Notes under the pieces: generated by a model
The model's database searches: none
Told to the model about the DNA's origin: nothing
The model's input: only the letters and a program-made list of their open reading frames with translations
Program-made: the position numbers and the translations under genes
Assembly: GCA_002256395.1 (NCBI GenBank)
Contig: NKJG01000004.1
Coordinates: 1-64,000, forward strand
DNA from: Bacteroidetes bacterium B1(2017)
GTDB lineage: Bacteria > Bacteroidota > Bacteroidia > UKL13-3
DNA length: 64,000 bases
Direction of reading: 5' to 3'
Shown: positions 7,627-57,673 of the stretch, piece after piece
Layout: the number at the start of each line of letters is the position of its first letter
How positions within the stretch are numbered: the stretch's first letter is position 1

Positions 7627-8934
7627 ATGAAAAAAGGATACTACCTAATTTTTTTGTTTCTAAGTACTTTTCACCTAAGTGCGCAGAGCCTGTATTTTCC
7701 TCCCTTAATTGGCAAAACTTGGGACACTCTATCGCCAAGCAATTTAGGCTGGTGTGTGTCAAAAACGGATAGCCTTTATTCATATCTTGAAAGTAAAAAT
7801 ACCAAAGGCTTTTTAGTATTACAGGATGGCAAAATTGTTTTGGAAAAATACTTTGGAACGTTTACTCAAGATAGTTTTTGGTATTGGGCATCGGCAGGTA
7901 AAACCATGAGCGCGTTAATGATTGGTATTGCGCAACAAAAAGGCCTATTATCCATTAACGATACCAGTTCTACTTATTTAGGAAAGGGATGGACAAGTTT
8001 AAGTCAGGCTCAGGAGGATAAAATTAAAATTAGGCACCAACTTACCATGACAAGTGGATTGGATGATACTGGCGTAAACAAAGATTGCACCTTTGATTCG
8101 TGTTTAGTTTATAAAGCAGATGCAGGGACACGTTGGGCATACCATAATGCTCCATACACCTTGTTGGATAAGGTTTTAGAGGCAGCAAGTTCTGTTACTT
8201 GGCAGCAGTTTTTTAATGTCGAGGTTAGAAATAAAACAGGAATTGGAGGGCTATGGATAAAAAGTGATTTTAATAATGTGCTCTATAGCAATACAAGAAG
8301 TATGGCACGATACGGCTTGTTGTTATTAAACCAAGGTAAATGGGATCAAACCACCATATTAAATGATACGGCTTATTTTAGGCAAATGACGCATGCTTCA
8401 CAAACATTAAATCCTGCCTATGGATACCTTACATGGTTAAATGGTTCTCCTAAATTTATGGCTCCTGGATCGCAATTGGTTTTTAATGGAATGTTGGCAC
8501 CAAATGCTCCATCCGATATGTTTGCAGCAATGGGTAAAAATGGTCAATTAATCAATGTTGTTCCATCGTTAAATTTAGTGCTGGTTAGAATTGGCGACGC
8601 CCCAGGTGATAATGGCGAAGTACCCATTTCTTTTAATAATGATATTTGGTTTTACTTAAATAAAGTTATGTGCAAAGGAGTAAGCGGTTTGAACCAACTA
8701 AAGGACCTGAAAGGTGTTTCAATTTATCCAAATCCTGCTCAAACAAGTATAGAAATTCAAGGTCTGAACCAAGGGCAAAATTGCACTCTTAAAATAATGG
8801 ATTTGAGAGGGAATATCCTTTCAGTTGTTACAAATGAAATGAACTTAAATATTAGCGACCTAAGTGCTGGTTGTTATATCCTAAGCCTAGAAACTCAAAC
8901 AGGAGTAGTATATAAGAAGTTTGTTAAGAACTAA
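7627..8934 (+). CDS. Secreted beta-lactamase-family serine hydrolase with type A sorting domain
   Basis: 435 residues. Signal peptide to about residue 20 (HLSAQ). The penicillin-binding/class C beta-lactamase fold is shown by the nucleophile motif SAGK (Ser89-Lys92) and a YHN motif (172-174). Members act as esterases, peptidases or amidases, so beta-lactam hydrolysis cannot be assumed. Residues about 360-435 form a type A C-terminal sorting domain (GVSIYPNPAQ... to KKFVKN), which predicts export by the type IX secretion system. It stands alone between dnaE, which diverges, and the ORF6N gene. Confidence 0.9.
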   Translation: MKKGYYLIFLFLSTFHLSAQSLYFPPLIGKTWDTLSPSNLGWCVSKTDSLYSYLESKNTKGFLVLQDGKIVLEKYFGTFTQDSFWYWASAGKTMSALMIGIAQQKGLLSINDTSSTYLGKGWTSLSQAQEDKIKIRHQLTMTSGLDDTGVNKDCTFDSCLVYKADAGTRWAYHNAPYTLLDKVLEAASSVTWQQFFNVEVRNKTGIGGLWIKSDFNNVLYSNTRSMARYGLLLLNQGKWDQTTILNDTAYFRQMTHASQTLNPAYGYLTWLNGSPKFMAPGSQLVFNGMLAPNAPSDMFAAMGKNGQLINVVPSLNLVLVRIGDAPGDNGEVPISFNNDIWFYLNKVMCKGVSGLNQLKDLKGVSIYPNPAQTSIEIQGLNQGQNCTLKIMDLRGNILSVVTNEMNLNISDLSAGCYILSLETQTGVVYKKFVKN

Positions 8935-9019
8935 ATCCAATATCTAGGATTTAAGTGGTGGTTGCTGCTATTTATTTAATTTTATTGCTTATATTTTTGA
9001 AGCTCATAATTTTAAATAT

Positions 9020-9574
9020 ATGGGTAGCTCAATTCAACTAAGTGATGAATCTGTAATAAGCAAAATTTATTTTATACGAGGTAAAAAGGTAATGCTTGAT
9101 AGAGACTTGGCAGAAATGTATGGGGTAGAAACAAAGCGATTAAATGAACAGGTAAAAAGAAACGCCAAACGATTTCCGAAAGACTTTATGTTCCAATTAA
9201 ATACCAAAGAATTGGAAAATTGGAAGTCGCAATTTGCGACTTCCAATTCCTTAACTAAGGGTTTACGAAAACTCCCATTTGCCTTCACAGAGCAAGGAGT
9301 AGCAATGCTTTCGAGTGTTTTAAATACAGATACATCCATTGAGGTAAACATTCAAATTATTAGAATATTTACAAAAATTAGAGACATTTTAAATGCAAAT
9401 AAGGATGCCTTACTTAAAATTGAACAACTTGAAAAGAAGGTTCTCAAACAAAATCATCGAGTTAGTAAACAGGAAAAAGATATTCAATTAATATTTGAAG
9501 CCTTAAAACATTTGCTCAATCCAGTTCAAGCATTACCAAAAGATTCAATTGGATTTAGGAAAAAGCAAACCTAA
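9020..9574 (+). CDS. ORF6N domain-containing DNA-binding protein
   Basis: 184 residues. Residues about 10-95 match the ORF6N domain (IYFIRGKKVMLDRDLAEMYGVETKRLNEQVKRN, later FAFTEQGVAML; shown here in part), a DNA-binding module common in phage and Bacteroidota mobile DNA, often related to KilA-N. The C-terminal 60 residues form a likely coiled coil (IEQLEKKVLKQNHRVSKQEK). No phage genes surround it. It overlaps the converging DUF853 gene by four bases. A 31-base perfect palindrome lies within its coding sequence at 9218-9248. Confidence 0.85.
   Translation: MGSSIQLSDESVISKIYFIRGKKVMLDRDLAEMYGVETKRLNEQVKRNAKRFPKDFMFQLNTKELENWKSQFATSNSLTKGLRKLPFAFTEQGVAMLSSVLNTDTSIEVNIQIIRIFTKIRDILNANKDALLKIEQLEKKVLKQNHRVSKQEKDIQLIFEALKHLLNPVQALPKDSIGFRKKQT
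9218..9248. repeat. 31-base perfect palindrome inside the ORF6N gene
   Basis: Arms AATTGGAAGTCGCAA (9218-9232) and TTGCGACTTCCAATT (9234-9248) are perfect inverted repeats around a single T at 9233. It encodes part of the segment NWKSQFATSN. Confidence 0.9.
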
Positions 9575-12247: not shown

Positions 12248-13480
12248 TTATAATTCAACTTCAACCTCATTTCTCAATAAATCCTCAAACTCTTCGCGCT
12301 TTCTAATTAATTGAGCTTTATTATTCCAAACCAAAACTTCAGCGGGTCTGAACCTGGCATTGTAATTACTACTCATTGTAAATCCATATGCACCTGCATT
12401 TTTAAAGCATAAAATATCTCCTTCATGCACCTCACTTAATTTCCTATCCCAACCAAAAGTGTCGGTTTCACAGATATATCCAACAACAGTGTAAATACGT
12501 TGCTTACCTTCAGGGTTACTCAGGTTTACAATTGAGTGGTATGAATCATACAGCATGGGTCTAATTAAGTGGTTCAAACCGCTATCAACTCCCACAAATA
12601 CAGTAGCTGTAGTTTGTTTTAATACATTTACTTTCACCAAAAAGTATCCAGATTCACTAACCAAATATTTACCGGGTTCGAACCAAAGTTCCAACTCTTT
12701 TCCATACTCTTTGCAAAACTCCATAAAGCGAGAAGATATAGCTGCTCCTAATTCTTCTATATCTGTAGTAATATCACCTTCTTTATAGGCAACTTTAAAT
12801 CCTGAACCAAAATCAACAAACTCTAAATCTGGGAAATCTTTGGCAGAATCAAAAAGAATTTCTGCTCCTTGTAAAAATACTCCTGCATCTAATATGTCGG
12901 AACCAGTATGCATATGAAGACCATTAACTCTAATATTACTAGATTTAACAACTCGAGCAACATGCCTTAATTGATAAACAGAAATGCCAAACTTTGAGTC
13001 GATATGTCCTGTAGAAATTTTGGTATTACCGCCTGCTAAAATATGGGGGTTAATTCTTATACAACAAGGAACACTATTGCCATATAAATGACCAAATTGT
13101 TCAAGGATAGAAATGTTGTCAATATTTATGTGAACTCCAAGTTTTACAGCTGCCTGAATCTCTTCAATACTTACACAGTTTGGTGTGAAAATTATATCTT
13201 TAGGTTCAAATCCTGCCTTTAAACCTAAATGAACTTCATTAATAGAAACAGTATCTAAACCACTACCTTGGTTTTTTAATAACTTAAGAATAGATGAATT
13301 ATTTAAAGCTTTACAAGCGTATTTTACCTTAATGTTTATTGGTTTAAAGGCATTTAACAATCGTTGGTATTGTTCTACAATTTTGTTCCCATCATACACA
13401 TAAACTGGGGCGCCAAACTCATTGGCAATTTCAATTAAATCACTACCCGAAGTAGTATATTGTCCATTCACTAATTCCAT
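12248..13480 (-). CDS. lysA: Diaminopimelate decarboxylase
   Basis: About 410 residues. PLP-dependent fold III enzyme of the alanine racemase/ornithine decarboxylase group: the PLP lysine is in KYACKALNN near residue 40, HMHTGSD near 190 and GSGFK follow, and CETDTFG is near 340. It makes L-lysine from meso-diaminopimelate, the last step of the pathway that also supplies peptidoglycan; dapF lies about 2.6 kb away on the other strand. I choose the ATG at 13480 (MELVNGQY). A promoter-like TATTTTTG only six bases upstream of this ATG implies a very short leader or none. Confidence 0.94.
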   Translation of the reverse strand: MELVNGQYTTSGSDLIEIANEFGAPVYVYDGNKIVEQYQRLLNAFKPINIKVKYACKALNNSSILKLLKNQGSGLDTVSINEVHLGLKAGFEPKDIIFTPNCVSIEEIQAAVKLGVHINIDNISILEQFGHLYGNSVPCCIRINPHILAGGNTKISTGHIDSKFGISVYQLRHVARVVKSSNIRVNGLHMHTGSDILDAGVFLQGAEILFDSAKDFPDLEFVDFGSGFKVAYKEGDITTDIEELGAAISSRFMEFCKEYGKELELWFEPGKYLVSESGYFLVKVNVLKQTTATVFVGVDSGLNHLIRPMLYDSYHSIVNLSNPEGKQRIYTVVGYICETDTFGWDRKLSEVHEGDILCFKNAGAYGFTMSSNYNARFRPAEVLVWNNKAQLIRKREEFEDLLRNEVEVEL

Positions 13481-13603: not shown

Positions 13604-15046
13604 TTACAATCCAAAACCATAATAACCTTTGCTACCATCAGGGTTTATTCCTTCTATTAGCACACCACCCTTATGGTCTTCCAAGCCAAGTTTAATATCA
13701 TTTATAGTGCCAACAGGGTTTTTGTCGATACTTGTTACCACAAAGCCATTTGGTATTCCTGCTTTTTTAAGCGGACTTTTTTCGCCAACTTTTTTTATTC
13801 TAACGCCATTTGCAATTTTTAATTTTAGACGTTCCTCTCTTGGAATCGTTTCAAACTCACAATCTAATACCTTATTACTTTCAATTTTCTCAACTTTAGT
13901 AACGGTTGTTTTTCCATCTTTTCCTTTAAGAGTGGCAGTAAGATCCATTCTACTTCCTTTTCTTAAAAGTCCAACCATTACTTTATCTCCAGGACTTTTC
14001 TTTCCAACTTTTTCTTGTAACTCATTGCTTGTATTTACATTTTCTCCATCAATGGCAACAATTACATCGCCATCTTTAATACCTGCAGATTCGGCGGCAG
14101 AGTTTTCATTTACCTTTGCAACATAAACGCCTTTTACATCTTTCAATCCTTCCTTCTCGGCAAGTTGGTTGTTTACATCTTGAATTTGAACGCCTAATAA
14201 ACCTCTTTGAACCTCACCATATTTCATTAAATCATCTACCACTTTTTTCATAAGGTTTGAAGGAATGGCAAAGGCATATCCAGCATAGTTACCAGTTTCG
14301 CTTGCTATGGCAGTATTAATACCAACAAGTTTGCCATCGGTAGAAACCAATGCACCTCCACTATTACCTGGGTTAACTGCAGCATCTGTTTGAATAAATG
14401 CTTCAATAGCATATTGAGTTTCTTGATTTCTTGGATCACGAATTAGGTTCAAACCGCGACCTTTTGCACTTACAATACCGGCTGTAACTGTTGATGTTAA
14501 GTTAAATGGATTACCTACTGCTAATACCCATTGACCAACTTTTACTTCATCCGAGTTTCCTAATACAGCAAATGGAAGGTTCTTTTCAACTATCCTCAAA
14601 AGTGCCAAATCTGTATTTTTGTCTTTACCCAAAAGTTCTGCATCGTATTCTCTTTTGTCGTTTAAGATTACTTTTATTTTGCTGGCACCTTCAATTACGT
14701 GATTGTTAGTAACTATGTAACCGTCAGAAGAAATAATTACTCCAGAACCGGATGCGCTTCTTGGCATTTGGGGCATGTCAAAACCTTTAAAAAATCCACC
14801 AAAGGGGTCGTTGCCTTGCTCTTGACCCGAGCTTGTAACAGTTGTAATAATATGAACAACAGTAGGTGTAACTAATTCAGCAACAGCTACAAAATCTGGA
14901 TGACTGCCATCTTGAATACTCGCATATTTTGCTAAGTAATTTGCAGTAAATTGTTGTTCATTGTCGTGTGAAATTAATTTGTTTAGTCCTATAGCAACCA
15001 AACCTCCAAGGCTGGCAACTACAATCATTCCTAGATACTTTTTCAT
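13604..15046 (-). CDS. degP: HtrA/DegP-family periplasmic serine protease
   Basis: 480 residues. The N-terminal hydrophobic segment (about 5-22) is a signal peptide or membrane anchor. A trypsin-like domain carries the triad His116 (TNNHVIEG), Asp146 (NTDLALL) and Ser229 (GNSGGAL). PDZ1 is at about 285-370 and a second PDZ-like domain at about 395-475. It degrades or chaperones misfolded envelope proteins. The arrangement fits DegP/DegQ more than DegS, because two PDZ domains are present. It is transcribed alone and ends at a strong hairpin. Confidence 0.94.
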   Translation of the reverse strand: MKKYLGMIVVASLGGLVAIGLNKLISHDNEQQFTANYLAKYASIQDGSHPDFVAVAELVTPTVVHIITTVTSSGQEQGNDPFGGFFKGFDMPQMPRSASGSGVIISSDGYIVTNNHVIEGASKIKVILNDKREYDAELLGKDKNTDLALLRIVEKNLPFAVLGNSDEVKVGQWVLAVGNPFNLTSTVTAGIVSAKGRGLNLIRDPRNQETQYAIEAFIQTDAAVNPGNSGGALVSTDGKLVGINTAIASETGNYAGYAFAIPSNLMKKVVDDLMKYGEVQRGLLGVQIQDVNNQLAEKEGLKDVKGVYVAKVNENSAAESAGIKDGDVIVAIDGENVNTSNELQEKVGKKSPGDKVMVGLLRKGSRMDLTATLKGKDGKTTVTKVEKIESNKVLDCEFETIPREERLKLKIANGVRIKKVGEKSPLKKAGIPNGFVVTSIDKNPVGTINDIKLGLEDHKGGVLIEGINPDGSKGYYGFGL

Positions 15047-21706: not shown

Positions 21707-23308
21707 ATGAAAAAGTATATCTTTCAAACTAAACTAATACTCGCTTCTCTTATGCTGCTACCCATTTTTTCTTGGGCGCAACAAGAAAGAGTATGCAGTT
21801 CAAAAGTTACTTCGGTAAATGTATTCTTGAACCAAGCTCAGGTACATAGAGAAGGGAAATTGGCATTGGAGGAAGGTGTTAACTTAGTTGTTTTTGATAA
21901 GATATCTCCGCAGTTAATTCAAGGCTCAATTGAAGTAGAGGCAGTAGAGGGAGTTGAAATACTTTCGGTAGGGGTGCAGACCGATTATTTTTCAAAAAAT
22001 AATAAGCCAACATTCATTCTTAATTTAGAAGATTCATTACGCACAATTACAGAACATTTAGCCGAAATAAAAGCGGATAAAGAAGCATTGGTTTTGCAAA
22101 AGGAATTGTTGCTAGCTAATAAAAATTTGGGCGGGAGCACTCAAGGAGTAAAGGCTGATGAATTGGAAGATGTATTGCTAATTTATCAGAAAAAGCTACA
22201 GGAGTTTAAGTTCGAGAATATTCGTTTAAACCGACTTGAACGCACCTATTTGGATCAAAAAGTTTTGGTAGAAAATCAATTGCAAGAGTATACCAATGGT
22301 ACACTTTCATTGATAAATCAAATAGTGGTTCAGGTTAGGTGCAGTAAACCTTTAGCAGAAGCAAAATTTGGACTAAAGTATTTGGTAAATGGAGTTAGTT
22401 GGCAAGCCTTTTATGATGTGAGAGTAAAGGATACTAAAAACCCAATGCAATTTGTGTTGAAAGCCAACCTTACGCAAAATACTGGTGAGGTTTGGGAGAA
22501 TGTAAAACTAAAACTCACTACTGCCAATCCAATGGATATAGGTGTTAAGCCTATTCTTGAACCAACCAGATTGTATTTGGTAAACAATAGTATTACAGAA
22601 AAAGATGCCGATGGCATTTCGGAAAAGATGGATGCGCCAGCTGCTTATAGGGCACTAAACGGTAATGAAGCATATACTCCAATCTCCCAACCCACTCAAA
22701 CCTTATTGAACCTTGAATTTGATGTGGCAGGTTTAAGCACCATCCCATCCGATTCGAAAACTCATTTGGTTGAATTGTATCGCTTTTCATTACCTGCCAG
22801 CTATGGGTATGCTTGTGTGCCTAAATTAAATTCGGAAGTGTTTGTGACTGCCAAGGTTCAAACCAATGAATTAATTAGCCAATTAAACGGGGAGGCAAAT
22901 GTGTATCTAAATGGCACTTATACTGGTAAAACTTTCTTGTCTGATAAAGGGCAAGATTCATTAACCATAACCTTGGGAAAAGAACATAGAGTAATTGTTA
23001 AAAGAGAAAAAGTAAAAGAGATGTGCAGTAAATCTTTGTTTGGGTCAACCAAAAAAGAGGCAAGCACAATTGAAATTACCTTAACCAATAGTAGTAACGA
23101 AACCATTGAAGTTGCTTTGGAGGATCAAATTCCTGTGCCAAGCAATAAAGAAATTGAGGTTAAATTGGGTGATATTGGAGACGCCAAACTTGCTGTAGAA
23201 ACTGGCCAATTGAGTTGGACAAAAAAGCTTGCTCCAAAGCAAACTATCAAAGTTAGGTTCTCATTTGAAATAAGTTATCCATCTAATAAAATAATAACAG
23301 GCTATTAA
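21707..23308 (+). CDS. DUF4139 / mucoidy inhibitor MuiA family protein
   Basis: 533 residues with a signal peptide ending SWAQ (about residue 25). The N-terminal DUF4140-like region (VTSVNVFLNQAQVHREGKLAL...) is followed by a coiled coil (about 105-185) and the C-terminal DUF4139 domain, with SWQAFYDVRV near 230 and PVPSNKEIEVKL near 480. These proteins are exported and their molecular role is unknown; the name comes from a mucoidy phenotype, not from a known activity. The protein is full length. Confidence 0.88.
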   Translation: MKKYIFQTKLILASLMLLPIFSWAQQERVCSSKVTSVNVFLNQAQVHREGKLALEEGVNLVVFDKISPQLIQGSIEVEAVEGVEILSVGVQTDYFSKNNKPTFILNLEDSLRTITEHLAEIKADKEALVLQKELLLANKNLGGSTQGVKADELEDVLLIYQKKLQEFKFENIRLNRLERTYLDQKVLVENQLQEYTNGTLSLINQIVVQVRCSKPLAEAKFGLKYLVNGVSWQAFYDVRVKDTKNPMQFVLKANLTQNTGEVWENVKLKLTTANPMDIGVKPILEPTRLYLVNNSITEKDADGISEKMDAPAAYRALNGNEAYTPISQPTQTLLNLEFDVAGLSTIPSDSKTHLVELYRFSLPASYGYACVPKLNSEVFVTAKVQTNELISQLNGEANVYLNGTYTGKTFLSDKGQDSLTITLGKEHRVIVKREKVKEMCSKSLFGSTKKEASTIEITLTNSSNETIEVALEDQIPVPSNKEIEVKLGDIGDAKLAVETGQLSWTKKLAPKQTIKVRFSFEISYPSNKIITGY

Positions 23309-23371: not shown

Positions 23372-23803
23372 ATGAAAAAACTAATTCTTTTACTTTTAGT
23401 AGCTTTTGCTATTCAATCAAATTCTGCATTTGCCCAATTGGGTGGCGCTATGGATAAACTTGCAAAACAAGGCTCTGCCGCTGCAACCGATGCAAAAAAC
23501 TCTTCTACTTCAACCATTTTAGGTAACTTAGATAAATCTTTAAAAGATCAATTTAAATTGGATGGTGTTAAGTCGCAAATTATGGGCGATGTATTAAAAA
23601 TTAAGGTTGCCGACACAGATTTTACTAAATTATCAGCTGCTTCAAAAACCAAGCAAGGTAATCAAATTGCAGATGCTGCCTCAAGTATTTTGGGTGGTAG
23701 CGGTTTGAACCTACAAGGATTAGGTTTAAAAAACATTATTGTTGAAATGTTTAAGAGTATGAGTTTGAATGATATTCTTGCTACTATTAAAAAACCAATT
23801 TAA
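23372..23803 (+). CDS. Small secreted protein, function unknown
   Basis: 143 residues. A clear signal peptide (to about residue 22, AFAQ) precedes a small domain rich in Ser, Ala, Lys and Asp, with a glycine-rich stretch (SILGGSGLNLQGLGLKN) near 110 and a hydrophobic C-terminus. No family is recognised. It lies 63 bases after the MuiA-family gene and is followed directly by a terminator hairpin. Confidence 0.7.
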   Translation: MKKLILLLLVAFAIQSNSAFAQLGGAMDKLAKQGSAAATDAKNSSTSTILGNLDKSLKDQFKLDGVKSQIMGDVLKIKVADTDFTKLSAASKTKQGNQIADAASSILGGSGLNLQGLGLKNIIVEMFKSMSLNDILATIKKPI

Positions 23804-25481: not shown

Positions 25482-26642
25482 ATGGAAAATCAAAAGAAGA
25501 AAATTGCTATTTTAGGTAGCACTGGAAGTATAGGAACTCAAGCTCTTGAAGTTATTAGTGAGCAAAATGCATTCCTTGAGGTGGAAGTTTTAACCGCCAA
25601 TAGCAATGCCGATTTGCTTATAAAACAAGCATTACATTACAAGCCAAATCATGTTGTAATTGCCGATGAATCTAAATACCTAGAGGTAAAGGATGCATTA
25701 GACCCACATGACATAAAAGTTTTTGCAGGTAATAAAGCCATTGAGGAGCTAATGGAAATTACCGAAGCCGATATGGTTTTAACGGCTATGGTTGGATATA
25801 GTGGTTTGAAACCTACTATTAAAGCGATAGAAAATAAGAAACGTATTGCCCTTGCAAACAAAGAAACTTTGGTGGTGGCAGGAGAGTTAATAACTCAATT
25901 ATGTGCTCAAAATAGAGTTGATTTAATACCTGTCGACTCCGAGCATTCGGCCATTTTTCAATGTTTGGTTGGAGAGAATTTGGATACCATTGATAAAGTA
26001 ATATTAACAGCCTCAGGTGGTCCCTTTAGAGGAAAAAAGAGAGAGGATCTTTTACATGTAACCAAGGCCCAAGCTCTTAAGCATCCTAATTGGAGCATGG
26101 GTGCAAAAATAACCATCGATTCGGCCTCCATGATGAATAAAGGCTTGGAGGTAATAGAGGCCAAATGGCTATTTGGTTTACAAAAAAATCAAATTGATGT
26201 AGTGGTACATCCTCAATCTATTGTGCACAGCATGGTTGAGTTTAATGATGGAAGTATAAAGGCCCAAATGGGTTTGCCAGACATGAAACTCCCAATTCAT
26301 TATGCCTTTTTCTTTCCGCAAAGGGTTCAAACCGACTTTAAGCGATTGAGTTTTAAAGATTATAACACACTTACATTTGAGGAGCCAGATCCAATTACTT
26401 TCAGAAATTTGGGTCTTGCCTTTGAAGCCATGGATAAGGGAGGAAATATGGCATGTATTTTAAATGCGGCCAACGAAATTGCCGTGGATGCTTTTCTTAA
26501 GGACAAGATAAAGTTTTTAGAAATTGCCGAATTAAATGAGAAATGTATGAATTTGGTTTCCTTTATTGAAAGGCCTAGTCTGGAGGATTATGTTAATACA
26601 GATGAAGAAACGAGAAGAATTGCCCTCAGTTTATTGAGTTAA
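25482..26642 (+). CDS. dxr: 1-deoxy-D-xylulose 5-phosphate reductoisomerase
   Basis: 386 residues, full length. The NADPH-binding motif GSTGSIG is at residues 11-17, the metal and substrate segments are PVDSEHSAIFQ near 150 and ASGGPFRG near 185, and the catalytic loop HPNWSMG is near 207. It converts DXP to methylerythritol phosphate, the second step of the non-mevalonate isoprenoid pathway. The gene is followed 41 bases later by rseP; the neighbouring order dxr-rseP is widely conserved in bacteria. Confidence 0.97.
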   Translation: MENQKKKIAILGSTGSIGTQALEVISEQNAFLEVEVLTANSNADLLIKQALHYKPNHVVIADESKYLEVKDALDPHDIKVFAGNKAIEELMEITEADMVLTAMVGYSGLKPTIKAIENKKRIALANKETLVVAGELITQLCAQNRVDLIPVDSEHSAIFQCLVGENLDTIDKVILTASGGPFRGKKREDLLHVTKAQALKHPNWSMGAKITIDSASMMNKGLEVIEAKWLFGLQKNQIDVVVHPQSIVHSMVEFNDGSIKAQMGLPDMKLPIHYAFFFPQRVQTDFKRLSFKDYNTLTFEEPDPITFRNLGLAFEAMDKGGNMACILNAANEIAVDAFLKDKIKFLEIAELNEKCMNLVSFIERPSLEDYVNTDEETRRIALSLLS

Positions 26643-39813: not shown

Positions 39814-41117
39814 GAAATACGAGTAATATCTGCCCCAATGGCTCTTAAACGCTCATCGATATTTTGGTAGCCACGATCAATTTGTTCAATATTGTTTATT
39901 GTGCTTGTACCTTGTGCGGCAAGTGCGGCTATAAGCATAGAAACACCAGCTCTAATATCTGGCGACGACATGTTTATACCTCTTAATTTTGTTTCACGGT
40001 TTGAACCTATAACTACGGCGCGGTGTGGGTCACACAAAATAATTTTTGCGCCCATATCAATAAGATTATCTACAAAGAATAGGCGGCTTTCGAACATCCA
40101 TTGATGAATAAGAACACTGCCTTTGGCTTGAGTGGCAGTTACTAATGCAACTGAAATTAAATCGGGGGTAAATGCTGGCCAAATACCATCTTTAATGGTT
40201 AATATAGATCCATCAATTAGGGTGTCAATTTTATACGAGTCTTGATTTGGAATACGAATATCATCTCCAATTATCTCTAATTTAATTCCCATTCTTTGAA
40301 ACATTTTTGGGATCAACCCGAGACTTGGAATGGCACAATTTTTAATTGTTATATCTGAATTTGTTGCTGCGGCAAGACCTATAAAACTTCCTATTTCAAT
40401 CATATCAGGAAGCATTCTATGTTTACATCCTCCAAGTGAATCTACTCCATCAATATGTAATAGATTTGAGCCAACACCTGTAATTTTTGCTCCCATGCTA
40501 ATGAGCATTTTACATAGTTGTTGAATATAGGGTTCACTAGCAGCGTTATATATGCTGGTTCGACCTTTAGCCAAAGTAGCGGCCATTAATATATTTGCAG
40601 TTCCAGTTACAGATGCTTCATCTAAAAGCATGTATGCACCTTTTAATTCTTTTCCATTTATTTTATAAAAACGCTCCTGGTGCATATGCTCAAAAGTTGC
40701 ACCTAGGTTTTCAAATCCGCGCAAATGTGTATCTACAGGGCGTCTACCAATTTTATCGCCACCGGGTTCAGGAATATATGCCAAGCCAAATCGAGCTAAG
40801 AGTGGGCCAATAATCATTATTGAGCCTCTAAGACTTGCACCTTTTAATTTAAACTCATCGCTCAATAAATAATCGAGGTTAACATTTTTAGCTTTAAAGG
40901 TATAGGTGTCTTCGCTAATTTTTGTAACCTCAACACCCATGTCGCCCAGCAACTCTATAAGCTTCATTACATCTCTAATGGCAGGGATATTAGAGATTTC
41001 AATTAGTTCTTCTGATAAAAGAACGGCAGATAAAATTTGGAGCGCTTCGTTTTTGGCTCCTTGAGGAACCAGTTCCCCTTTTAATTGTTTTCCGCCTACA
41101 ACTTTAAATGATCCCAT
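39810..41117 (-). CDS. murA: UDP-N-acetylglucosamine 1-carboxyvinyltransferase
   Basis: 435 residues from the ATG at 41117 (MGSFKVVGGK). The EPT/RTPC fold is clear, with the active-site Lys in GAKNEALQ (Lys22) and GTANILMAAT further on. It makes the first committed peptidoglycan precursor from PEP and UDP-GlcNAc. The loop residue that is Cys115 in E. coli is Asp121 here (GGDKIGRRPVD), the variant known to be insensitive to fosfomycin. It is separated from the upstream barrel gene by ten bases. An upstream TTG in frame would add 12 unconserved residues and is less likely. Confidence 0.95.
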   Translation of the reverse strand: MGSFKVVGGKQLKGELVPQGAKNEALQILSAVLLSEELIEISNIPAIRDVMKLIELLGDMGVEVTKISEDTYTFKAKNVNLDYLLSDEFKLKGASLRGSIMIIGPLLARFGLAYIPEPGGDKIGRRPVDTHLRGFENLGATFEHMHQERFYKINGKELKGAYMLLDEASVTGTANILMAATLAKGRTSIYNAASEPYIQQLCKMLISMGAKITGVGSNLLHIDGVDSLGGCKHRMLPDMIEIGSFIGLAAATNSDITIKNCAIPSLGLIPKMFQRMGIKLEIIGDDIRIPNQDSYKIDTLIDGSILTIKDGIWPAFTPDLISVALVTATQAKGSVLIHQWMFESRLFFVDNLIDMGAKIILCDPHRAVVIGSNRETKLRGINMSSPDIRAGVSMLIAALAAQGTSTINNIEQIDRGYQNIDERLRAIGADITRIS

Positions 41118-41127
41118 GGTGTTTGTA

Positions 41128-42804
41128 TTAAAATGTAAAGGTAAAGCCTCCAAGAATATTTATGCCATAAACAGGAAGTGCATAATATCTTTGGTAGCGA
41201 TTATTTGCTATGTTATTGAAGTTTAAGAAGGCCGATAAATTTTTGCTATATCTATAATCAATTCCAAAGTTTAAGTCAACAAATGGATTCATTTTATAAT
41301 CGGTGCTAACAAAGGTGCCGTCTGTTCTCTTTGAGTCAACTCTTCCTGTTCTTTCGCCCCAATAAATTAGGTCTAATTTTAGCAAAAATTTATCGCCAAT
41401 ATTATAGGTGCTGTTCAATTTTGTTTCGAACTGAGGTAAAGAATATGCTTTAGCCAAAGATTTTAACTGATAGCCAAAAACGTTGGTTATAATACCTATT
41501 CTAAATTTTTCATTCCATTGATGTTGTATGGCTAAAGAAAGGGTTGTAAGTTTAGCACTACCATTCAAATCATACAAGGCAATTTGATGTCCGCTTGAAG
41601 AATCTTTTGAAAAGCAAAGTAAATTTTCTACTGCAGCTGAGCTTGCAGTGATTTGGAAGTTAGTTTGTGGCCCAAGTTCACCTTTAAGTCCGCCGTATAC
41701 TTCTACTCTTTGGATTGTATTGAGTAATGAAAATTCGTTAACAAATGGGTTTTCTGTGGTAATGCTGCGGTAAGTATTGGGGTTTAAACCGCCTTTTAAC
41801 CCAGCATAAACAACTAACTTATTGTTTATGATAGAATAACCGCCTTCTGCTTTAGGGAAGAAATGAAATTTAGCCCCAGCAGAATCGCTACTTATGGTTG
41901 AATTAAATCCTCCTTTTAGGTAAAAATCTGTTCCAGTCATAAACACTTGAGGATTTAAATCAAAGAAAATTCGTTGGTAATTTAGCCATATATCAGAAGT
42001 AGAAGAATGGATTGAATTATTGTTTAATCTAAGGCCAGTTACAAGCTCAAATGGAATGCTGCTCGTTTGTTTGGCTATTCTTGCTTTTAATGCCACATCA
42101 TTTTCATTGAAGCTTCCATTACTAGTATAGTTGTAGTAATTGGCATCCAATTTATAAACCAAACCGTTACTATCTGTTTGATAGTTTTGATAATTAGTTT
42201 TTAGGTCGTACAAGAAATAAACTAAACTTGGGTCCTTACTCAATTTTAATTGATCGTTTGGTGAGCCATATAAATTTACGGAATTTCTATAGAAAAACGC
42301 ATCCACTCCAACTGCACCCTTGGCTAAAAATTTCTTTACATACCCATATGCTAAATTGTTTGAGAATTTATTGTAATCAGCGTCGCCAATGGCCGAAAGA
42401 TGTTTTACAAATAAACCGGCTTGATATTGTTTGTTGCGAACGGAGTTTAAGTAAAATTCAACTAATGGAGTATTGTAATTGCCATATCCAATTTTTGCAT
42501 AGTTGTTTTTTAATTTAGGCAAAAGCATGGTTCCAACACTTAGAGGTTTAATAGTATAAATGGTAGGTTGAACCGAGTATTGTTGATTAGGAATATCGTA
42601 ATTAAATACAGGCTTTACGAATTCAGGTTTTTCGGGATTTGGGTTTACAGGAATACGAATGGCTTCAGACAGTTGTGGTTTAAAAACTTTGGTAACAAGT
42701 ACATTATTGTTTTCTATTGTGGTGTCTTTTTGCTGTGCATTTAGGTTGTCTAAACAAAGCAATGTTCCAACAAGGAGTAAGAATTTATGAAGAATATTTT
42801 TCAT
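41128..42804 (-). CDS. Outer-membrane beta-barrel protein (TonB-receptor-like barrel)
   Basis: 558 residues. Signal peptide to about residue 24 (NLNAQ), then an N-terminal region with prolines (VNPNPEKPEFVKPVFNYDIP) and a long series of alternating strands to the C-terminus (GINILGGFTFTF, ending in Phe). It has the look of a TonB-dependent receptor barrel, but no plug domain is visible. It follows the large TPR gene by six bases, so they probably work together. Function unknown. Confidence 0.7.
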   Translation of the reverse strand: MKNILHKFLLLVGTLLCLDNLNAQQKDTTIENNNVLVTKVFKPQLSEAIRIPVNPNPEKPEFVKPVFNYDIPNQQYSVQPTIYTIKPLSVGTMLLPKLKNNYAKIGYGNYNTPLVEFYLNSVRNKQYQAGLFVKHLSAIGDADYNKFSNNLAYGYVKKFLAKGAVGVDAFFYRNSVNLYGSPNDQLKLSKDPSLVYFLYDLKTNYQNYQTDSNGLVYKLDANYYNYTSNGSFNENDVALKARIAKQTSSIPFELVTGLRLNNNSIHSSTSDIWLNYQRIFFDLNPQVFMTGTDFYLKGGFNSTISSDSAGAKFHFFPKAEGGYSIINNKLVVYAGLKGGLNPNTYRSITTENPFVNEFSLLNTIQRVEVYGGLKGELGPQTNFQITASSAAVENLLCFSKDSSSGHQIALYDLNGSAKLTTLSLAIQHQWNEKFRIGIITNVFGYQLKSLAKAYSLPQFETKLNSTYNIGDKFLLKLDLIYWGERTGRVDSKRTDGTFVSTDYKMNPFVDLNFGIDYRYSKNLSAFLNFNNIANNRYQRYYALPVYGINILGGFTFTF

Positions 42805-42810: not shown

Positions 42811-45800
42811 TTACTTTTCGCTTTGTTTAATACGTTGTTCAATTTGTTTTTGACTTTCTTGTTTTTGCGATTTTTCCATATCCGCAATTTCGTTTAGTTT
42901 TGCCTTGCATTGGCTAAGGATATCTTGTCCGTCATAGTTATCGATAATACTTTGAAGGGTTGCTTTTGCTTGAAACAAATCGTTTTGTTTAATATAGGTA
43001 TCAGCCAATAATACAAAGCCTTTAGCAACCCAAGAATCGAATGCACTAAATTTATCATTGAGTTCGAAAATGGTTTTTTGAGCCGCTTTATATTCTTTTC
43101 TGTTGTATTGAATGAGGGCAATAGTATATTTTGCTTCGGCGCCATAAATATTTTTGGTTTCTTTTAATACGGCATTAAATGCTGTCAATGCCGAATCTTG
43201 TTTACCATGAAGCATATAATATCTTCCTAAATAGGTTTGAGCTTCAATAATTCCATCTTTTTGAGCAATACCTGAGTTTAAATATTTGGTAGAAGCTAAG
43301 GCTGCTGTATCAATTTTATTCATATAGGCAGCCGTTCTCATTTGCCCTAAAATAGAAACTTGTAGGTTGTCTTTATTACTTGCAATTCGTTCAAGAATTG
43401 AGAAATATTCATAGGCTTTTTCATAGTTCTTTCTCATGTTTAATAATACGGCGCTCTGCCTGGCACTTTTCTCTGAATATTCGCTTCTAAGTTGGTTGGC
43501 AACATATTCATAGCAAACTAATGCGTCGTCGTATTTCTTTAATTTATAATCGCATTCGGCTTTGTAATAATTTGCTTTTAAAATAAAGAACCCACCTGGG
43601 AAGCGAGTAATATAATTTCCGAAAGCTTTGCTAGCTTTATCCGTTTTTTCATCAGAGTATAATTTAAAAGCCGATTCATAGCCGATGGAATCTTGGGTAG
43701 AAGCTGAAATTAATACATTAGGTAAAACCTTAATAAAATCAAGGTAAACTTCTCCTTTACCTTGATTTACCAATATGGTTTGAACCAAAGGAAGTGCTGC
43801 TCTAGCTTCATCGCTACTAGGGTAATTGGTAATTAACTTTTTAATATCATCCAAAGCTTCCTCGTCTTTTTGAAGGTTAAATAAAGCTAGTGCTTTGTTT
43901 AATATTGATTTGCGCAAATAGATTGATCGTGGGTAATTGCTGATAATATTTTGGAAAGCAGTAATTGCAGTTGAATAGTTTTCTGTTTTCAAATAAATAT
44001 CTGCCAATTCAAATACAGCATCGTCTATATAAGGTGATTTGGGGTAGTTTTTTTCGATGGTTTTAAGTGCAGTAATTTTTTCTTCATCCCTGCCTAATAC
44101 ACCCAAAATCATTGCTTTTTGGTATAGAGCATAATCAGCCCCAGTTAAGTTTTTCTGAACCAAAATGGAATAATATTCAATGGCTTTAGAATAGTTTTTA
44201 TCCGCAAAATAACAATCGGCTATTCTTATGGCAGCATCGGTGTATACTTCTGGATTAGTAGCATTTTTATCTTTGTCTTCATACGCAATAAATGCCTCAA
44301 TTGCATTGCTATATTGTTCTTGCTTTAGGTAGGCATAGCCTAAATTATAAAATGACTGATTATAGAATCGGGTTTCTTTTACCTCGCTTGTTGCCTGAAA
44401 TTTTTGAATATTTTGAACACATGATTTAAAGTTAAGGTCTCTATAATCTTGCTCGGCAATCCAAAAATAGGCGAGGCCTTTCATTTTTAGGTCGTATGAA
44501 TCGGCGCTAACTTTTTTAAATAATTCGTTGGCTTCAGAATAATTGTTATTTAAGTAAAGCTCCTCGGCTCGGTAATAACTTACACGTTGCAAATTGGTTA
44601 GGTCTTGTTTAGTTGGTTTCTTTAAGCCCTCCAAAATTCGGATTGCTTCTTTATAGTTTTTCGCATGTAATAAAATGTTGCCCAAATTGGCTCTTGCTTC
44701 TTCTGTAAATGCCCCGTCGGGATATTGGTCTATCAATTTTACATAGCGGTTCATAGCAATACCTTGAAGGTTTAATTCATCAGAAACCTTTGCAGAAAAA
44801 AACAAACTAGGTTCGGCCAAAGACCCTGTTGAATCTGCGTTGTAGCTACTTTCAAAGGCGGCTCTTGCTGCTGTTTTATTGTTTAAAGCTAGGTAACTAT
44901 TTCCAAGGTTATATAAAACGTAAGGACCAATGGTATCGTTATTGGCATCCACTTTTAAAAATTGAGTAATAGCTTTTTCATGTTGTTTGTTTTGAGCGTA
45001 GCAGTATCCAAGCATATAATAATCGTTGTTACTTGGAACAACAGGAGCTGCACTCATAAACTTTTCAAGATTAGGGATTGCCTCTGGGTAATGTTGTAAT
45101 TGATAATGCGATTGTCCAACAATTCCTGCCACATCATTGGCAACATCGGCATTGCTTATGGTATCGCAGAAGGTAATTACTTGGGCGTATTGTTTTCTTA
45201 CAAAATATACTTGGGCAATATATACGCTTGATAAGGGGCCAAATGTTTTATGGTATTTTACTCTTCCAAAATGCTCCAGCGCCTCATCGTATGCGGCCGA
45301 TTTGTAGCAGACGTACCCATAATAATAATTAGATGCATCATAGTACTTACTCTTTTCGTCTTTAATAGGTTTAAAGGCTTTTTTTGCATCTTCAAAACGT
45401 TCTACTTTAAATAATGAATACCCATAAATAAAATAGTATTCTTTTAGTTCTGGTCCAGTAAGGTATTTTGTTTCTACTCCATCCAGGGTTGCAACAGCCT
45501 GCTTGTTGTTTTTATTTCTATAATAAAGTTTACCTAATTGAAATTTAGCTAATTTGGCTTTGGTGTTTTCAGGGTATAGGGTATTAATTTGTTTTAATTT
45601 CCATTCTGCATCGCCATTAAATAATTCCATGGCACAAACGGCAGAATAATAAATTGCATTAATTTGATTTTGTGCCTGATGGTTTATTTGAATATACTCA
45701 TCAAATTGTTTTTGAGCCGCGGCATACTTTTCCTTTTCAAAGAGTTCAATTCCTTTGTTGTACAGTCTTATTTCATCGGTGTATATGGCCGTTTGCTGAG

Positions 45801-46984: not shown

Positions 46985-49099
46985 TTATTTTTTAGGGAAT
47001 GCGCTGATGGCAAAACCACCACCACGAGCAACATTAACAGTAAGTTTAGTTTTACTGGTAACAGTCATTTTTTCAATTTTATATGCTTCCGGATTATTAT
47101 CCCAGCTAGCATCCTGGGCATCTTTATAAATGGTAATATCATATTTTTTACCTTTATCTAAGAAGCTAAAATCAATAGTCATTGTTCTTGCATTTTCATC
47201 CGAAATAGCACCAATAAACCAGTTGTTTGTTCCTTTGGCTTTACGCGCAGTAGCTAGGTAATCGCCAGGTTCGGCCAATAATATTTTGGTGTCATCCCAA
47301 TCAACCGCAACATCTTTTATAAATTGAAATGCGTCTAATTTAGCCTTATAGTTTTCTGGTAAATCTGTTACCATTTGAACTGGGCTATATAAGGTAACAT
47401 ATAAAGCTAATTGCTTTGTAAGAGTTGTATGAACTTGTTCTTTAGCACCTGGTATATAATAGCTTTTCTTAATTTTAAAGATACCTGGAGTATAATCCAT
47501 TGGGCCACCCATTATACGAGTAAAAGGTAAAATGGTTTCATGCTCAGGTGGGTTTCCTTCGCTCCAGAAATTAAATTCCTGTCCTCTTGCGGCCTCTGCT
47601 GCCATAAAATTTGGATAGGTTCTATGCAAACCTGTAGGGCGCACTGGCTCATGAGCCACCACCATAATATTATAATCAGATGCCTTTTTAATGGCCCGTA
47701 GGTAATGGTTTACCATCCATTGTCCATCGTGGTATTCGCCTCTTGGAATAATTCTACCCACATAACCCGATTTAAGTGCAGTGCTTCCATACGCATTCAT
47801 TTGACGGTAGGCCGTGTCCATCCATCTTTCATAATTGGTTACACTTCCGCTTGTTTCGTGGTGAGTAATGATGGTTATATTTTTGCTTCTAGCGTATTGG
47901 TTCAAACCTTTTACATCAAAATCTGGGTAGGGGGTAACAAAGTCAAAAACATCTTCTTTCCATTTGCCAAACCAATCTTCCCAGCCAGTATTCCATCCTT
48001 CCACTAGCACACCGCTAAATCCGTTTTCGGCAGCAAAGTCGATGTATTTTTTTGTGTTTTCTGTAGTTGCACCATGTTTTACTTTGGTAGCTTTTTTGGC
48101 TTCTCCACCCGCATCGCTTGCCGATTGTGATCCGGCATAATCCCAGGTAGAAACACCTAAGTGCATTTCAAGCCAAATACCAACATATTTCATTGGTTTA
48201 ATATAGGTGGCATCGGCAATTTTAGATGGTTCGTTCAGATTCAAAATCATTTTTGATGCAATAATTTCTCTAGCATCATCACTCACAACAATTGTTCTCC
48301 AAGGAGTTTGAGCCGGAGCTCTCATATAGGCTTTGTTACCTACTGCATCAGGAGCTAAAGTGGTTGTTGCATTAAAGGTATTTACATCAAATTTTAAATC
48401 CATACACGGATAATTGATAAGGGCTGCCTCATGAATGTTCATATAAATACCTTCGGCCGACTTAATCATAAGAGGTGTTTGCACAAATGAACCTGCAATT
48501 GGTGTGGCTGTAAAAATATTGCCATCACGTTTTTGAGTTTTCTTTTCTACCTCGGTAATTTTAGATGTATAATACGCATATTCATTGGTGTCAAAATCGC
48601 CCGGAATCCACCAAATTTTATGGTCGCCAGTAAGGTTAAACGAAGTTAACTCATCATTAATAATAAAATGCATGAGGTTTTCTTGTTCTGGAAACTCGTA
48701 TCTAAAACCTACGCCATCGTCATATATTTTAAAATTAATTTTAATAATATGAGGCGTTTTAGCATTATCAGTTAGGGTAACAATTAATTGATTATACTTA
48801 TTTTGAATAGTTTTTGTTTCGCCCCAAACAGGCGTCCATGGCTCATCAACAGATTTCTTTTCGATATTTGTTAAGGTATAGCTAAGGCCAAAATCGGCCA
48901 TATCTTTTATGCTGAATCCAAGCGAAGATTCTTCCATTACAGATTTACCTTTATAGCTAAGAGTATAAGTTGGCTTACCATTTTGAAGGTTAAAGCTTAA
49001 GTTAACTTTGCCAGAAGGCGAAGTCATAGGAATTGATTCAGCAAATAGGGCAGAACATGCCATCATAAATGCCCACAGAAACACAACTGATTTTTTCAT
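46985..49099 (-). CDS. Glycoside hydrolase family 97 enzyme (SusB-like alpha-glucosidase)
   Basis: About 704 residues from the ATG at 49099, with a signal peptide ending LFAES. The N-terminal beta-sandwich (about 20-280) and the catalytic barrel are present: WNTGWEDWF near 375, HHETSG near 420, HEPVRPTGLHRTYPN near 490 and ARGQEFN near 520. Glutamates at these places fit the calcium-dependent inverting alpha-glucosidases (SusB) rather than the retaining alpha-galactosidases, which have an Asp nucleophile. It ends at a strong hairpin. It likely releases glucose from oligosaccharides in the periplasm. Confidence 0.9.
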   Translation of the reverse strand: MKKSVVFLWAFMMACSALFAESIPMTSPSGKVNLSFNLQNGKPTYTLSYKGKSVMEESSLGFSIKDMADFGLSYTLTNIEKKSVDEPWTPVWGETKTIQNKYNQLIVTLTDNAKTPHIIKINFKIYDDGVGFRYEFPEQENLMHFIINDELTSFNLTGDHKIWWIPGDFDTNEYAYYTSKITEVEKKTQKRDGNIFTATPIAGSFVQTPLMIKSAEGIYMNIHEAALINYPCMDLKFDVNTFNATTTLAPDAVGNKAYMRAPAQTPWRTIVVSDDAREIIASKMILNLNEPSKIADATYIKPMKYVGIWLEMHLGVSTWDYAGSQSASDAGGEAKKATKVKHGATTENTKKYIDFAAENGFSGVLVEGWNTGWEDWFGKWKEDVFDFVTPYPDFDVKGLNQYARSKNITIITHHETSGSVTNYERWMDTAYRQMNAYGSTALKSGYVGRIIPRGEYHDGQWMVNHYLRAIKKASDYNIMVVAHEPVRPTGLHRTYPNFMAAEAARGQEFNFWSEGNPPEHETILPFTRIMGGPMDYTPGIFKIKKSYYIPGAKEQVHTTLTKQLALYVTLYSPVQMVTDLPENYKAKLDAFQFIKDVAVDWDDTKILLAEPGDYLATARKAKGTNNWFIGAISDENARTMTIDFSFLDKGKKYDITIYKDAQDASWDNNPEAYKIEKMTVTSKTKLTVNVARGGGFAISAFPKK

Positions 49100-56083: not shown

Positions 56084-56090
56084 AAATCTC

Positions 56091-56951: not shown

Positions 56952-56960
56952 CAATTTATT

Positions 56961-56998: not shown

Positions 56999-57011
56999 AA
57001 TATTGCCTTGT

Positions 57012-57653
57012 ATGAATATTGGCAAGGATGCTTTTCTGAAATCATATGTAGGCTTATTGTTGGTCTTATTTTGCTACCAATATTTTGTGCCTCAGCTTGC
57101 TATTAGTTTGGCAATAAATTCCCACCACAGCTCCATTTTAGATTTGCTTTGTGTTTATGGAACCTTCTTGGGAGATGGGTGGTTTGTTTGCGCCTCTTGT
57201 ATTGTATTATTCTTCTTTAAACCTCGGTTAGCCCTACTTATTTTGATTAGTTATGCGCTAAGTGCCGGCTTTACTCAATTGCTTAAACATACACTTTTCA
57301 CTAGTATGCACAGGCCTTTATGGCATATTGAAGAGTTAGGAATCACTAGCCATTATTTAGTACCAGGAGCAGAGCATAATTATAATAACTCATTTCCTTC
57401 TGGGCATTCTACTTCGGCCTTTGCGGTATTTGGAATGTTGGCATTGTATGTCAACAAAAATTGGCAAAGAGTGCTGTTCTTTATCCTTGCTTTTTTTACT
57501 GCTTTTACACGCATTTACTTACTTCAACACTTCTTGATTGATACGTGTGTTGGATCTATAATTGGTAGTACAACAGCTAGTCTGATTTATTTCGGCCTAT
57601 ACCAAAAAGGCAGGCTTCAATTTCTATTTGCTAAAATAAAGAAGGAAGTTTAG
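57012..57653 (+). CDS. PAP2-family phosphatase
   Basis: About 213 residues from the ATG at 57012. Several transmembrane helices. The acid phosphatase signature is in three pieces: a basic KHTLFTSMHRP near 95, PSGHSTSAF near 128 and TRIYLLQHFLID near 165, which match the KxxxxxxRP / PSGH / SRxxxxxHxxxD motifs with small changes. It dephosphorylates lipids such as undecaprenyl diphosphate or phosphatidate; exact substrate unknown. It lies after the SusCD terminator and is an independent transcript. Confidence 0.88.
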   Translation: MNIGKDAFLKSYVGLLLVLFCYQYFVPQLAISLAINSHHSSILDLLCVYGTFLGDGWFVCASCIVLFFFKPRLALLILISYALSAGFTQLLKHTLFTSMHRPLWHIEELGITSHYLVPGAEHNYNNSFPSGHSTSAFAVFGMLALYVNKNWQRVLFFILAFFTAFTRIYLLQHFLIDTCVGSIIGSTTASLIYFGLYQKGRLQFLFAKIKKEV

Positions 57654-57663
57654 TTTTTAAATA

Positions 57664-57673
57664 GGTTCGAACC
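57664..57673. repeat. GGTTCGAACC palindrome, intergenic copy
   Basis: Perfect ten-base palindrome, extended to AGGTTCGAACCT, in the 22-base gap between the converging PAP2 and TonB-receptor genes. It is the only copy after 47908. Confidence 0.85.

Follow-up and report, generated by a model that had tools for sequence, protein, structure and literature searches.

A word iterated throughout a genome is a rare trace of some process that rewrites the chromosome as a whole. Chi sites are over-represented short genomic words, and parS/ParB, the Noc sites and matS/MatP provide dyad sites of chromosome-organising proteins, which number tens in a defined region. To our knowledge, the well-described uptake sequences are those of Neisseriaceae and Pasteurellaceae, and we know of no palindromic one among the DUS and USS. 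Studies of the Neisseriaceae DUS (Frye et al. 2013, PMC3630211; Treangen et al. 2008, PMC2397512) describe hundreds to thousands of copies in either orientation (about 1900 per genome for the neisserial DUS, PMC3630211), clade dialects that differ by a few bases and track phylogeny (PMC3630211), retention above background, and more copies in permissive places. HIP1 and the alternate HIPs of cyanobacteria are described as short palindromes iterated over whole genomes and clade-specific, with alternate words in relatives (PMC4390886). HIP1 itself is still unexplained.

The window analysed here (the whole stretch of DNA, 64,000 nucleotides of contig NKJG01000004.1 from Bacteroidetes bacterium B1(2017)) contains the decamer GGTTYRAACC exactly 15 times by a full recount, the number claimed in the first-pass annotation, compared with a mean of 0.29 and a maximum of 3 in 100 dinucleotide-preserving shuffles. 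The strong excess described there is real, at about 50-fold over these shuffles rather than about 80-fold. Its G+C content of 37% is corrected to 35.5%, and one start given as 26334 lies at 26324, the other 14 being right. Inside genes, where 13 copies are observed and synonymous-codon shuffles give a mean of 1.2, the excess comes to about 11-fold, because codon usage alone lifts the expected count. The whole assembly contains 398 copies, whereas the reversed pattern occurs 74 times, and the density is 234 per Mb in the window compared with 72 per Mb in the assembly (5.5 Mb, 7.13% contamination); the window is therefore denser than the contaminated assembly as a whole. We regard chance, composition or matches to tRNA T-arms as a negligible explanation. 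One form of the decamer, GGTTCGAACC, has a sequence that we take to resemble a T-arm, but no tRNA gene lies in the window, this form has 1, 0, 0 and 0 copies in G019, G022, G023 and G024 of sister genera, and the shuffle and reversed-pattern controls fall far below the observed counts, which refutes all three readings.

The decamer proved to be the core of a longer near-palindromic word of 14–16 bp, TNGGTTYRAACCNA or more broadly TNGGNTYRANCCNA, with the tolerance profile TNGGNTY|RANCCNA. Every one of the 19 genus genomes is enriched for the word, with 24–1081 copies against 1–11 for the reversed control. There are 0–10 copies in 45 genomes of the same order outside the genus and 0–9 in 394 further genomes elsewhere in the phylum Bacteroidota. 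Among the genomes sampled, the iterated word is restricted to one Bacteroidota genus. Strict-word density spans 28–347 per Mb, an approximately 12-fold spread among congeners, and relaxed-word density reaches 420 per Mb in the G007 stretch and 488 per Mb in the G013 stretch, as against about one copy per 1000 bases for HIPs. G013, listed as 100% complete, is the most site-rich genome. The excess over a third-order Markov model reaches about 160-fold in G007 and G013, against 105-fold for G012 and 63-fold for the G000 sample; the last ratio, like the synonymous-shuffle and intergenic-density ratios of G000, leans on twelve stretches picked with knowledge of the match positions, whose density is no estimate for the genome. 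In G012 the CG-centred word alone occurs 40 times on both strands where the same model expects 0.02. In the genomes tested, in-gene counts exceed synonymous shuffles 5.6- to 10.6-fold, and near-matches to the word are likewise in excess. A free EM motif search returned a low-information pattern only, and word searches of one open-access library gave, among the papers listed, no description of the word as a genomic signal, which does not prove its absence from print. Alternate iterated dyads were sought in sister genera (60–120 kb each of G019, G021, G022, G024 and G078) and rejected, the strong ones being AT-rich runs and a hairpin repeat with 6 of 9 copies within one 5-kb stretch in G021, and a repeat-protein gene holding 7 of 8 copies in G022. 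Motif-dense viruses were also dismissed: 135 viral stretches, retrieved through matches to the word, gave 14 further sites.

The 15 sites of the window, all given on the plus strand, represent four forms of the decamer. The form GGTTTGAACC occurs at 8686..8695 in a gene for a serine hydrolase of the Pfam Beta-lactamase family (PF00144) that ends in a C-terminal sorting tail (PF18962); at 23702..23711, where there is no ORF of at least 150 aa and the G013 alignment has a matching site; at 29374..29383 in the adenylosuccinate lyase gene purB, retained in G008, in G003 and, with centre TA, in G015; at 39998..40007 in a gene of the EPSP-synthase family that is probably murA, with the identical site in G013 and G007; and at 43777..43786 in the gene of a large TPR-repeat protein, not retained in either of these genomes. 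The form GGTTCAAACC lies at 12571..12580 in a minus-strand gene of the pyridoxal-dependent (ornithine/diaminopimelate/arginine) decarboxylase family, not retained in G013 or G007; at 14446..14455 in a trypsin-PDZ (DegP/HtrA-like) protease gene and at 47899..47908 in a GH97 glycoside hydrolase gene, both identical in G013 and G007; at 22855..22864 in a DUF4139/DUF4140 gene, retained, among the genomes covered, in G002; and at 26324..26333 in dxr (DXP reductoisomerase), with exact retention in none of the genomes covered. Copies of GGTTCGAACC are found at 12675..12684 in the same decarboxylase-family gene, the orthologous site being CA-centred in G013 and CG-centred in G007; at 28629..28638 immediately 5' of the listed purB start; at 38266..38275 in dnaJ, not retained in G013 or G007; and at 57664..57673 between the convergent 3' ends of a PAP2 superfamily gene and a TonB-dependent receptor plug gene. 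The rare TA-centred form, GGTTTAAACC, occupies 41781..41790 in a gene without a Pfam match and is not retained in G013 or G007. The absence of copies from 47909–57663 and past 57673 holds within the window but is not significant (P = 0.55 and 0.31 when relaxed sites are considered across 84 kb of the contig).

A split into 13 genic and 2 intergenic sites had been proposed; 13 are genic with a mechanical caller at a 90-aa limit, compared with 12 when ORFs of at least 150 aa are used, which leaves 23702, 28629 and 57664 outside. The sites are mostly genic, in all three frames and on both strands, and intergenic density is 1.5- to 3.4-fold above genic density, most strongly in G013 (867 vs 257 per Mb in genes); the callers behind this figure and the synonymous shuffles are mechanical. 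Sites are sparser in genes, as would be expected where coding constraint limits them. That the word represents ordinary regulator sites or a protein-coding motif is very improbable. The raised intergenic density would suit regulators, and the peptides LVQT and GLNQ do recur, but the sites lie mainly in genes, the peptides encoded in the window differ as had been noted, and their host genes belong to unrelated families by Pfam matches. A shared protein motif fails as the cause, as had been argued from the sequence: synonymous shuffles abolish most in-gene sites.

Spacing is near random, with the closest pairs 20 bp apart. Orientation is balanced in G007 (80 vs 100, neighbours alike in 81 of 179 cases) on a single stretch of 460 kb. 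The word shares over-representation with Chi, differs from it in being near-palindromic, and may also differ in orientation, which shows no preference on the stretch examined. A terminator-like role for close pairs was considered and rejected: pairs less than 160 bp apart number 18 against 12.5 expected in G007 and 8 against 5.8 in G013. Among close pairs with two directional members, 16 of 23 have opposite orientations, a weak lean. Tests for site-free islands gave P = 0.049, 0.001 and 0.078 in G007, the second for an 18-kb stretch of ribosomal-protein genes, and no significant result in G009 or G013; four proteins scanned in the longest G007 gap showed no sign of foreign origin. These islands lend weak support to an uptake role.

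The spelling of the word varies by clade. Dialects, which differ mainly in one central base and cluster with clades on a one-gene tree, are either symmetric with centre CG or directional, TTGGTTCAAACCGAA. The CG-centre share is 0.77–0.81 in G010, G012 and G016 compared with 0.04–0.05 in G004, G007, G009 and G017. Flanks are most often symmetric at the CG-centred sites of G012, G000 and the G002/G010/G016 pieces, and many sites in the G012 and G000 dialects are perfect palindromes. G007, G009 and G013 are directional: CA-centred sites have flanks T..G rather than the mirror C..A in 51 vs 2 cases (G007 and G009 together) and in 20 vs 0 cases in G013. The CA dialect as a decay product of CG-to-CA deamination was rejected, as simple deamination would not yield one-sided flanks. 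The first-pass likening to HIP1 as a highly iterated palindrome therefore stands for the iteration and not for the plain decamer palindrome, since the unit is the 14–16-bp word with its dialects, directional in some genomes.

Two outcomes had been named that would refute the first-pass proposal: a genome-wide count near the codon-shuffled expectation, and no retention of sites in close relatives. In-gene counts exceed that expectation, with the word iterated genome-wide and genus-wide, and in a pooled test 40 of 124 aligned sites (32%) are retained exactly compared with 2284 of 35356 same-composition words (6.5%), counting every pair in both directions with pairs sharing genomes. The proposal thus passed on both counts. 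When only the region near dxr is considered, 15 more congeners retain the site in 4 of 40 site-by-genome cases, no better than the background of 4–10%. Of 13 directed comparisons, 12 give a modestly higher per-base identity inside sites than in flanks, nearly equal in one of these (0.750 vs 0.748), and the remaining one gives a lower identity.

The symmetry of the word looks like that of a site for a dimeric chromosomal protein. It is possible, though rather unlikely, that the word is bound across the chromosome by a dimeric protein, of helix-turn-helix or winged-helix type, serving nucleoid organisation, segregation or intracellular self-marking, with sites kept by selection. The flank symmetry of the CG-centred sites and the pooled retention agree with such a site, as would the dyad profile, whose GG positions may lie about one helical turn apart around a central pyrimidine-purine step. 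Like parS, Noc sites and matS, the word is a 13–16-bp dyad of comparable information; those sites number tens, in contrast to about a hundred to more than 1000 strict sites here. The near-random spread with pairs as close as 20 bp and the 12-fold density spread among congeners also argue against this reading, and the directional CA dialect is ill-suited to a symmetric homodimer. A ParB/Noc-type paralogue dedicated to the word was rejected: each of 14 genus genomes has one full-length ParB_N match and no extra full-length ParB, with one additional partial match in G003.

An origin like that proposed by Elhai for HIP1, as a by-product of a DNA methyltransferase and biased mismatch repair (PMC4390886), appears improbable. 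Iteration far above expectation, palindromic spelling in some dialects, alternates in relatives as in cyanobacteria (PMC4390886) and the excess of near-matches would fit it. The present word differs from HIP1, a GC-rich 8-mer, in its 14–16 bp with A/T-rich flanks, in the directional dialect, and in the lack of a genus-wide methyltransferase in the three families searched. PF01555 scores over cut-off in 5 and PF00145 in 4 of 14 genus genomes, neither in the site-rich G013; PF02086 is found in 7 of 19, two of them marginal, and in G013 as a fragment with two internal stops. None of these three families is genus-wide and none is intact in G013. The alignment columns give an estimated specificity of about 20 bits, and we know of no type II methyltransferase with such specificity; nor does deamination account for the one-sided flanks. 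Of the roles listed in the first-pass annotation, that of methylation target is thereby weakened, and uptake signal and protein-binding site remain candidates.

In copy number, dialects and placement, the word looks most like a DNA uptake sequence. It is very abundant and clade-restricted, its dialects follow phylogeny on a single-gene tree, and pooled retention and intergenic enrichment correspond to conservation and permissive placement. The directional dialect, the balanced orientation in G007 and the near-random spacing also speak for this reading. The clade-varying spelling and the absence from sister genera suggest a recognition tag read by some protein, possibly for telling own DNA from foreign. 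We tentatively favour a self-recognition (uptake-type) tag in natural transformation; that it is the first DNA uptake sequence of Bacteroidota, near-palindromic, dialect-bearing and read by a putative pilus-independent receptor, we propose with greater hesitation. The reader of the word would be a sequence-specific DNA-binding protein of these bacteria, and sites would spread and persist since tagged DNA is favoured. A putative surface or periplasmic receptor would prefer tagged DNA, recombination with tagged relatives would, by molecular drive, carry sites to positions that tolerate them, and a new dialect would arise when the receptor preference changes.

Some observations speak against an uptake role. 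The known apparatus, a type IV pilus with receptor pilin, is missing: its ATPase, PF00437, scores over cut-off in 1 of 23 genomes, with only a 54-residue match in G000. The search for a reader among the three methyltransferase families, ParB and type IV pilus ATPases found none. Strict density is below that of the neisserial DUS, from which the word also differs in being near-palindromic and in occurring in Bacteroidota, and any uptake preference is putative; the perfect palindromes of the G012 and G000 dialects point to a cytoplasmic dimer as reader. The modest rise of per-base identity inside sites and the background-level retention near dxr also weigh against this role. Given the negative search for type IV pilus ATPases, uptake would proceed without pili, as has been reported for Riemerella. 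Two reports describe competence without pilus homologs in Bacteroidota (PMC8459023) and a preference of R. columbina for its own DNA (PMC7965970).

Dialects within one genus are a natural experiment on the reader of the word, for which the 45 sister-genus genomes serve as negative controls, and the dialect switch between the G012 clade and G013 is predicted to lie in the surface through which one protein reads DNA. If the word is an uptake word, it would provide a handle on the outer-membrane DNA uptake machinery of Bacteroidota.

A recount gave 15 copies of the palindromic decamer GGTTYRAACC in the window, as the first-pass annotation had claimed; all but one of its start positions stand, and the remaining one is corrected to 26324. 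Dinucleotide shuffles of the window contain 0.29 copies. In a synonymous-codon control, codons were permuted inside each gene in 60 shuffles. The window genes carry 13 decamers compared to 1.2 in these shuffles, with corresponding values of 100 and 10.3 in 420 kb of the congener G007, 35 and 6.2 in 160 kb of the congener G013, and 37 and 3.6 in pieces, picked by hits, of contig C9 of the window's own assembly (G000). Because the shuffles fall far below the observed counts, the excess is real and is explained neither by codon use nor by protein sequence, although codon use removes part of the 80-fold over-representation originally proposed. Separate from this word, GCCGAT/ATCGGC occurs 45 times in the window against 12 expected. 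No tRNA was found in the window, and an ORF6N-domain protein gene (PF10543; 9020–9574, plus strand), possibly phage-derived, lies amid other genes.

Site alignment in bulk DNA showed that the conserved word extends beyond the decamer. Compared with a third-order Markov model, the 14-mer TNGGTTYRAACCNA occurs 89 times against 0.54 expected in the 420 kb of G007, 39 against 0.25 in G013, 26 against 0.41 in a G000 sample and 22 against 0.21 in G012. Centres other than YR are nearly absent from the 14-mers of these four samples, and none is TA-centred; the TA centre is found three times in G003 and G014, and at one window site as a bare decamer. The word tolerates other bases at positions 4 and 9 (G is 75-fold over expectation in G007), so that the broader word is TNGGNTYRANCCNA. 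Around it lies a halo of near-sites, in which many further single mismatches are several-fold over expectation and a few positions yield zeros. GGTT-2-AACC is the top-ranked dyad in G007, G013, G000 and G003, and the second in G012, where GTTC-GAAC, the core of the same word, ranks first. The strong iterated dyads in sister-genus samples were dismissed as AT-rich runs or as repeats of local extent. In the sister-genus genome G021, one hairpin (arms TCCCGAAT...ATTCGGGA) is repeated six times in about 5 kb (L218:5574-10792) and is local, not genome-wide, within the 100 kb of G021 covered. Three viral contigs (L339, L355, L361) contain 3–4 copies of TTGGTTCGAACCAA, spaced 81, 162 and 477 bases apart; the copies apparently belong to a single repeat that the contigs have in common.

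Among 41 genomes surveyed for the decamer (19 of the genus, 6 of other genera of the family and 16 of the class), all 19 of the genus are enriched, with 109–1424 copies compared to 14–74 for the reversed-pattern control. No such enrichment is seen in the 6 genomes from the family's other genera (6–39, control 14–58). The class genomes contain 3–26 (control 0–51), and 5 of the 16 exceed the control at few copies (22 vs 10, 24 vs 7, 6 vs 4, 15 vs 8, 3 vs 0). The 14-mer separates the genus more cleanly: order-wide, it numbers 24–1081 in the 19 genomes (control 1–11) and 0–10 in 45 others from 13 genera (control 0–6), the highest being three genomes of genus g7 (9–10, control 3–5). A phylum sample of 394 genomes other than G000 gave 0–9. 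The G000 assembly (5.50 Mb, 225 contigs) has 398 decamers against 74 for the control. It may mix genomes, given its 7.13% contamination, its size (5.5 Mb compared to 1.7–4.3 Mb in congeners) and a decamer density of 72 per Mb against 234 per Mb in the window, which is positions 1–64000 of a 390-kb contig (G000:C187).

The spelling of the word differs among species. CG-centred decamers predominate in G012 (300/371), G010 (272/353) and G016 (186/239) and are rare in G013 (92/1424), G007 (34/880), G009 (30/828), G004 (36/699), G017 (9/191), G015 (6/174) and G018 (6/109), with intermediate shares in the remaining genus genomes. These shares group by clade on a single-gene Dxr tree of 25 genomes, several nodes of which have support below 0.5. 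The least enriched members, G015 and G018, fall outside three sister genera on this tree, so that their genus membership or the history of Dxr is uncertain; their 42 and 24 fourteen-mers could possibly represent an early stage or a loss of the system. The flanks of 112 CA-centred 14-mers from G007 and G009 are T..G in 51, T..A in 18 and A..G in 16, with the mirror C..A in 2; the 37 of G013 give T..G 20, T..A 8 and C..A 0. Symmetric flanks are commonest at CG-centred sites of G012, G000 and a small G002/G010/G016 sample, whereas the commonest flanks in G003 and G014 are one-sided (4 of 8 sites). From these counts, some species carry a directional form of the word, and in others it is often perfectly palindromic.

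Sites occupy all three frames and both strands, point in either orientation (80 vs 100 in G007), and are 1.5- to 3.4-fold denser in intergenic than in genic DNA in six sample sets with mechanical gene calls. Spacing is near random in 20-kb bins (variance/mean 1.05 in G007, 0.75 in G013, 0.93 in the window's contig) and clumpier in G009 (1.84). Close pairs (<160 bp) in G007 and G013 lean to opposite orientation, in 16 of 23 with two directional members. The copy-free stretches noted in the window exist, but their lengths are not significant. Among the long site-free spans of G007, one encodes ribosomal proteins S3 and L4 together with EF-G (p = 0.001). The four proteins scanned in the longest span (p = 0.049) are a bestrophin, a secreted monooxygenase-like protein, a CAAX protease and one unknown. 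A span of 12 kb (p = 0.078) has genes for two C5 DNA methylases and for a GmrSD-type nuclease (L127:6398-12817, contig G007:C27) and is likely a restriction-modification island. A span in G009 is a polysaccharide cluster (p = 0.14). A chromosomal binding site of a protein, maintained by selection, would fit the dyad and the symmetric dialects, and does not fit the copy number, the spacing or the directional dialect; we consider it rather unlikely.

Retention at orthologous positions, to which the first-pass annotation had tied its proposal, is evident when six pairs are pooled: 40 of 124 sites are exactly kept (52 as a class), and exact retention among words of the same composition is 2284 of 35356. 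It is not evident near dxr, where 15 other congeners with at most 3 sites covered keep 4 of 40 cases against a background of 4–10%. Aligned over coding sequence, G013 and G007 each retain 4 of 12 window sites, while the share of identical 10-mers overall is 8.8% for G013 and 5.2% for G007; four sister-genus genomes retain 0 of 7 cases. In DNA alignments, all 9 sites are common to G007 and G009 (21 kb at 92.5% identity), one of them with a CA/CG switch, and at 73–79% identity 4/15 to 4/6 sites are kept as a class (identical 10-mers 6–14%). Since sites tend to be whole or lost, per-base identity within them only modestly exceeds that of the flanks (12 of 13 directed comparisons favour the sites, and 1 the flanks). 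Orthologous sites can differ in centre: the one at 12675 has CG in both the window and G007 but CA in G013. Such cases show that a site can persist while the dialect changes.

The word's specificity, estimated from the columns of aligned sites at roughly 20 bits, would imply a dedicated DNA-binding protein that reads it. Searches with ParB_N, PF01555, PF00145, PF02086 and PF00437 did not find such a reader. An extra full-length ParB paralogue was rejected: each of the 14 genus genomes examined has a single full-length ParB_N match, to which G003 adds one that is partial. The methyltransferase families exceed the cut-off in 5 of 14 (PF01555), 4 of 14 (PF00145) and 7 of 19 (PF02086, two marginal) genus genomes, and G013, the site-richest genome, has no intact member of the three. 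The model that Elhai put forward for HIP1 (PMC4390886), in which repair is coupled to methylation, is weakened by this sporadic occurrence and appears improbable; other or unknown roles take up the rest of the probability. Among 23 genomes searched for the type IV pilus ATPase PF00437, the sole match above the cut-off is one of 54 residues in G000. The word behaves like either a HIP or an uptake sequence, but the searches did not bear out the methyltransferase expected of the former or the pilus expected of the latter, and we therefore assign it to neither. Word searches of the literature returned, among the matches listed, no title mentioning the word as a genomic signal in five spellings, and no Bacteroidota uptake sequence.

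Of the three processes that might generate a word of this kind (repair coupled to methylation, biased uptake with molecular drive, and selection for a chromosomal binding site), our tentative preference is for an uptake-type (DUS-like) sequence spread by molecular drive, a reading we hold as possible rather than probable. The missing pilus counts against it. Riemerella, also of the Bacteroidota, is nevertheless reported to be competent, with pilus homologs not detected (PMC8459023). R. columbina prefers its own DNA, although that study established no uptake word and the k-mers abundant in it are rich in A/T (PMC7965970). The copy number, the clade dialects, the about 12-fold density differences among congeners, the near-random spacing, the permissive placement, the near-site halo and the directional dialect all fit an uptake sequence. 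As described for DUS (PMC3630211, PMC2397512), biased uptake of word-bearing DNA together with molecular drive would build up copies in these genomes.
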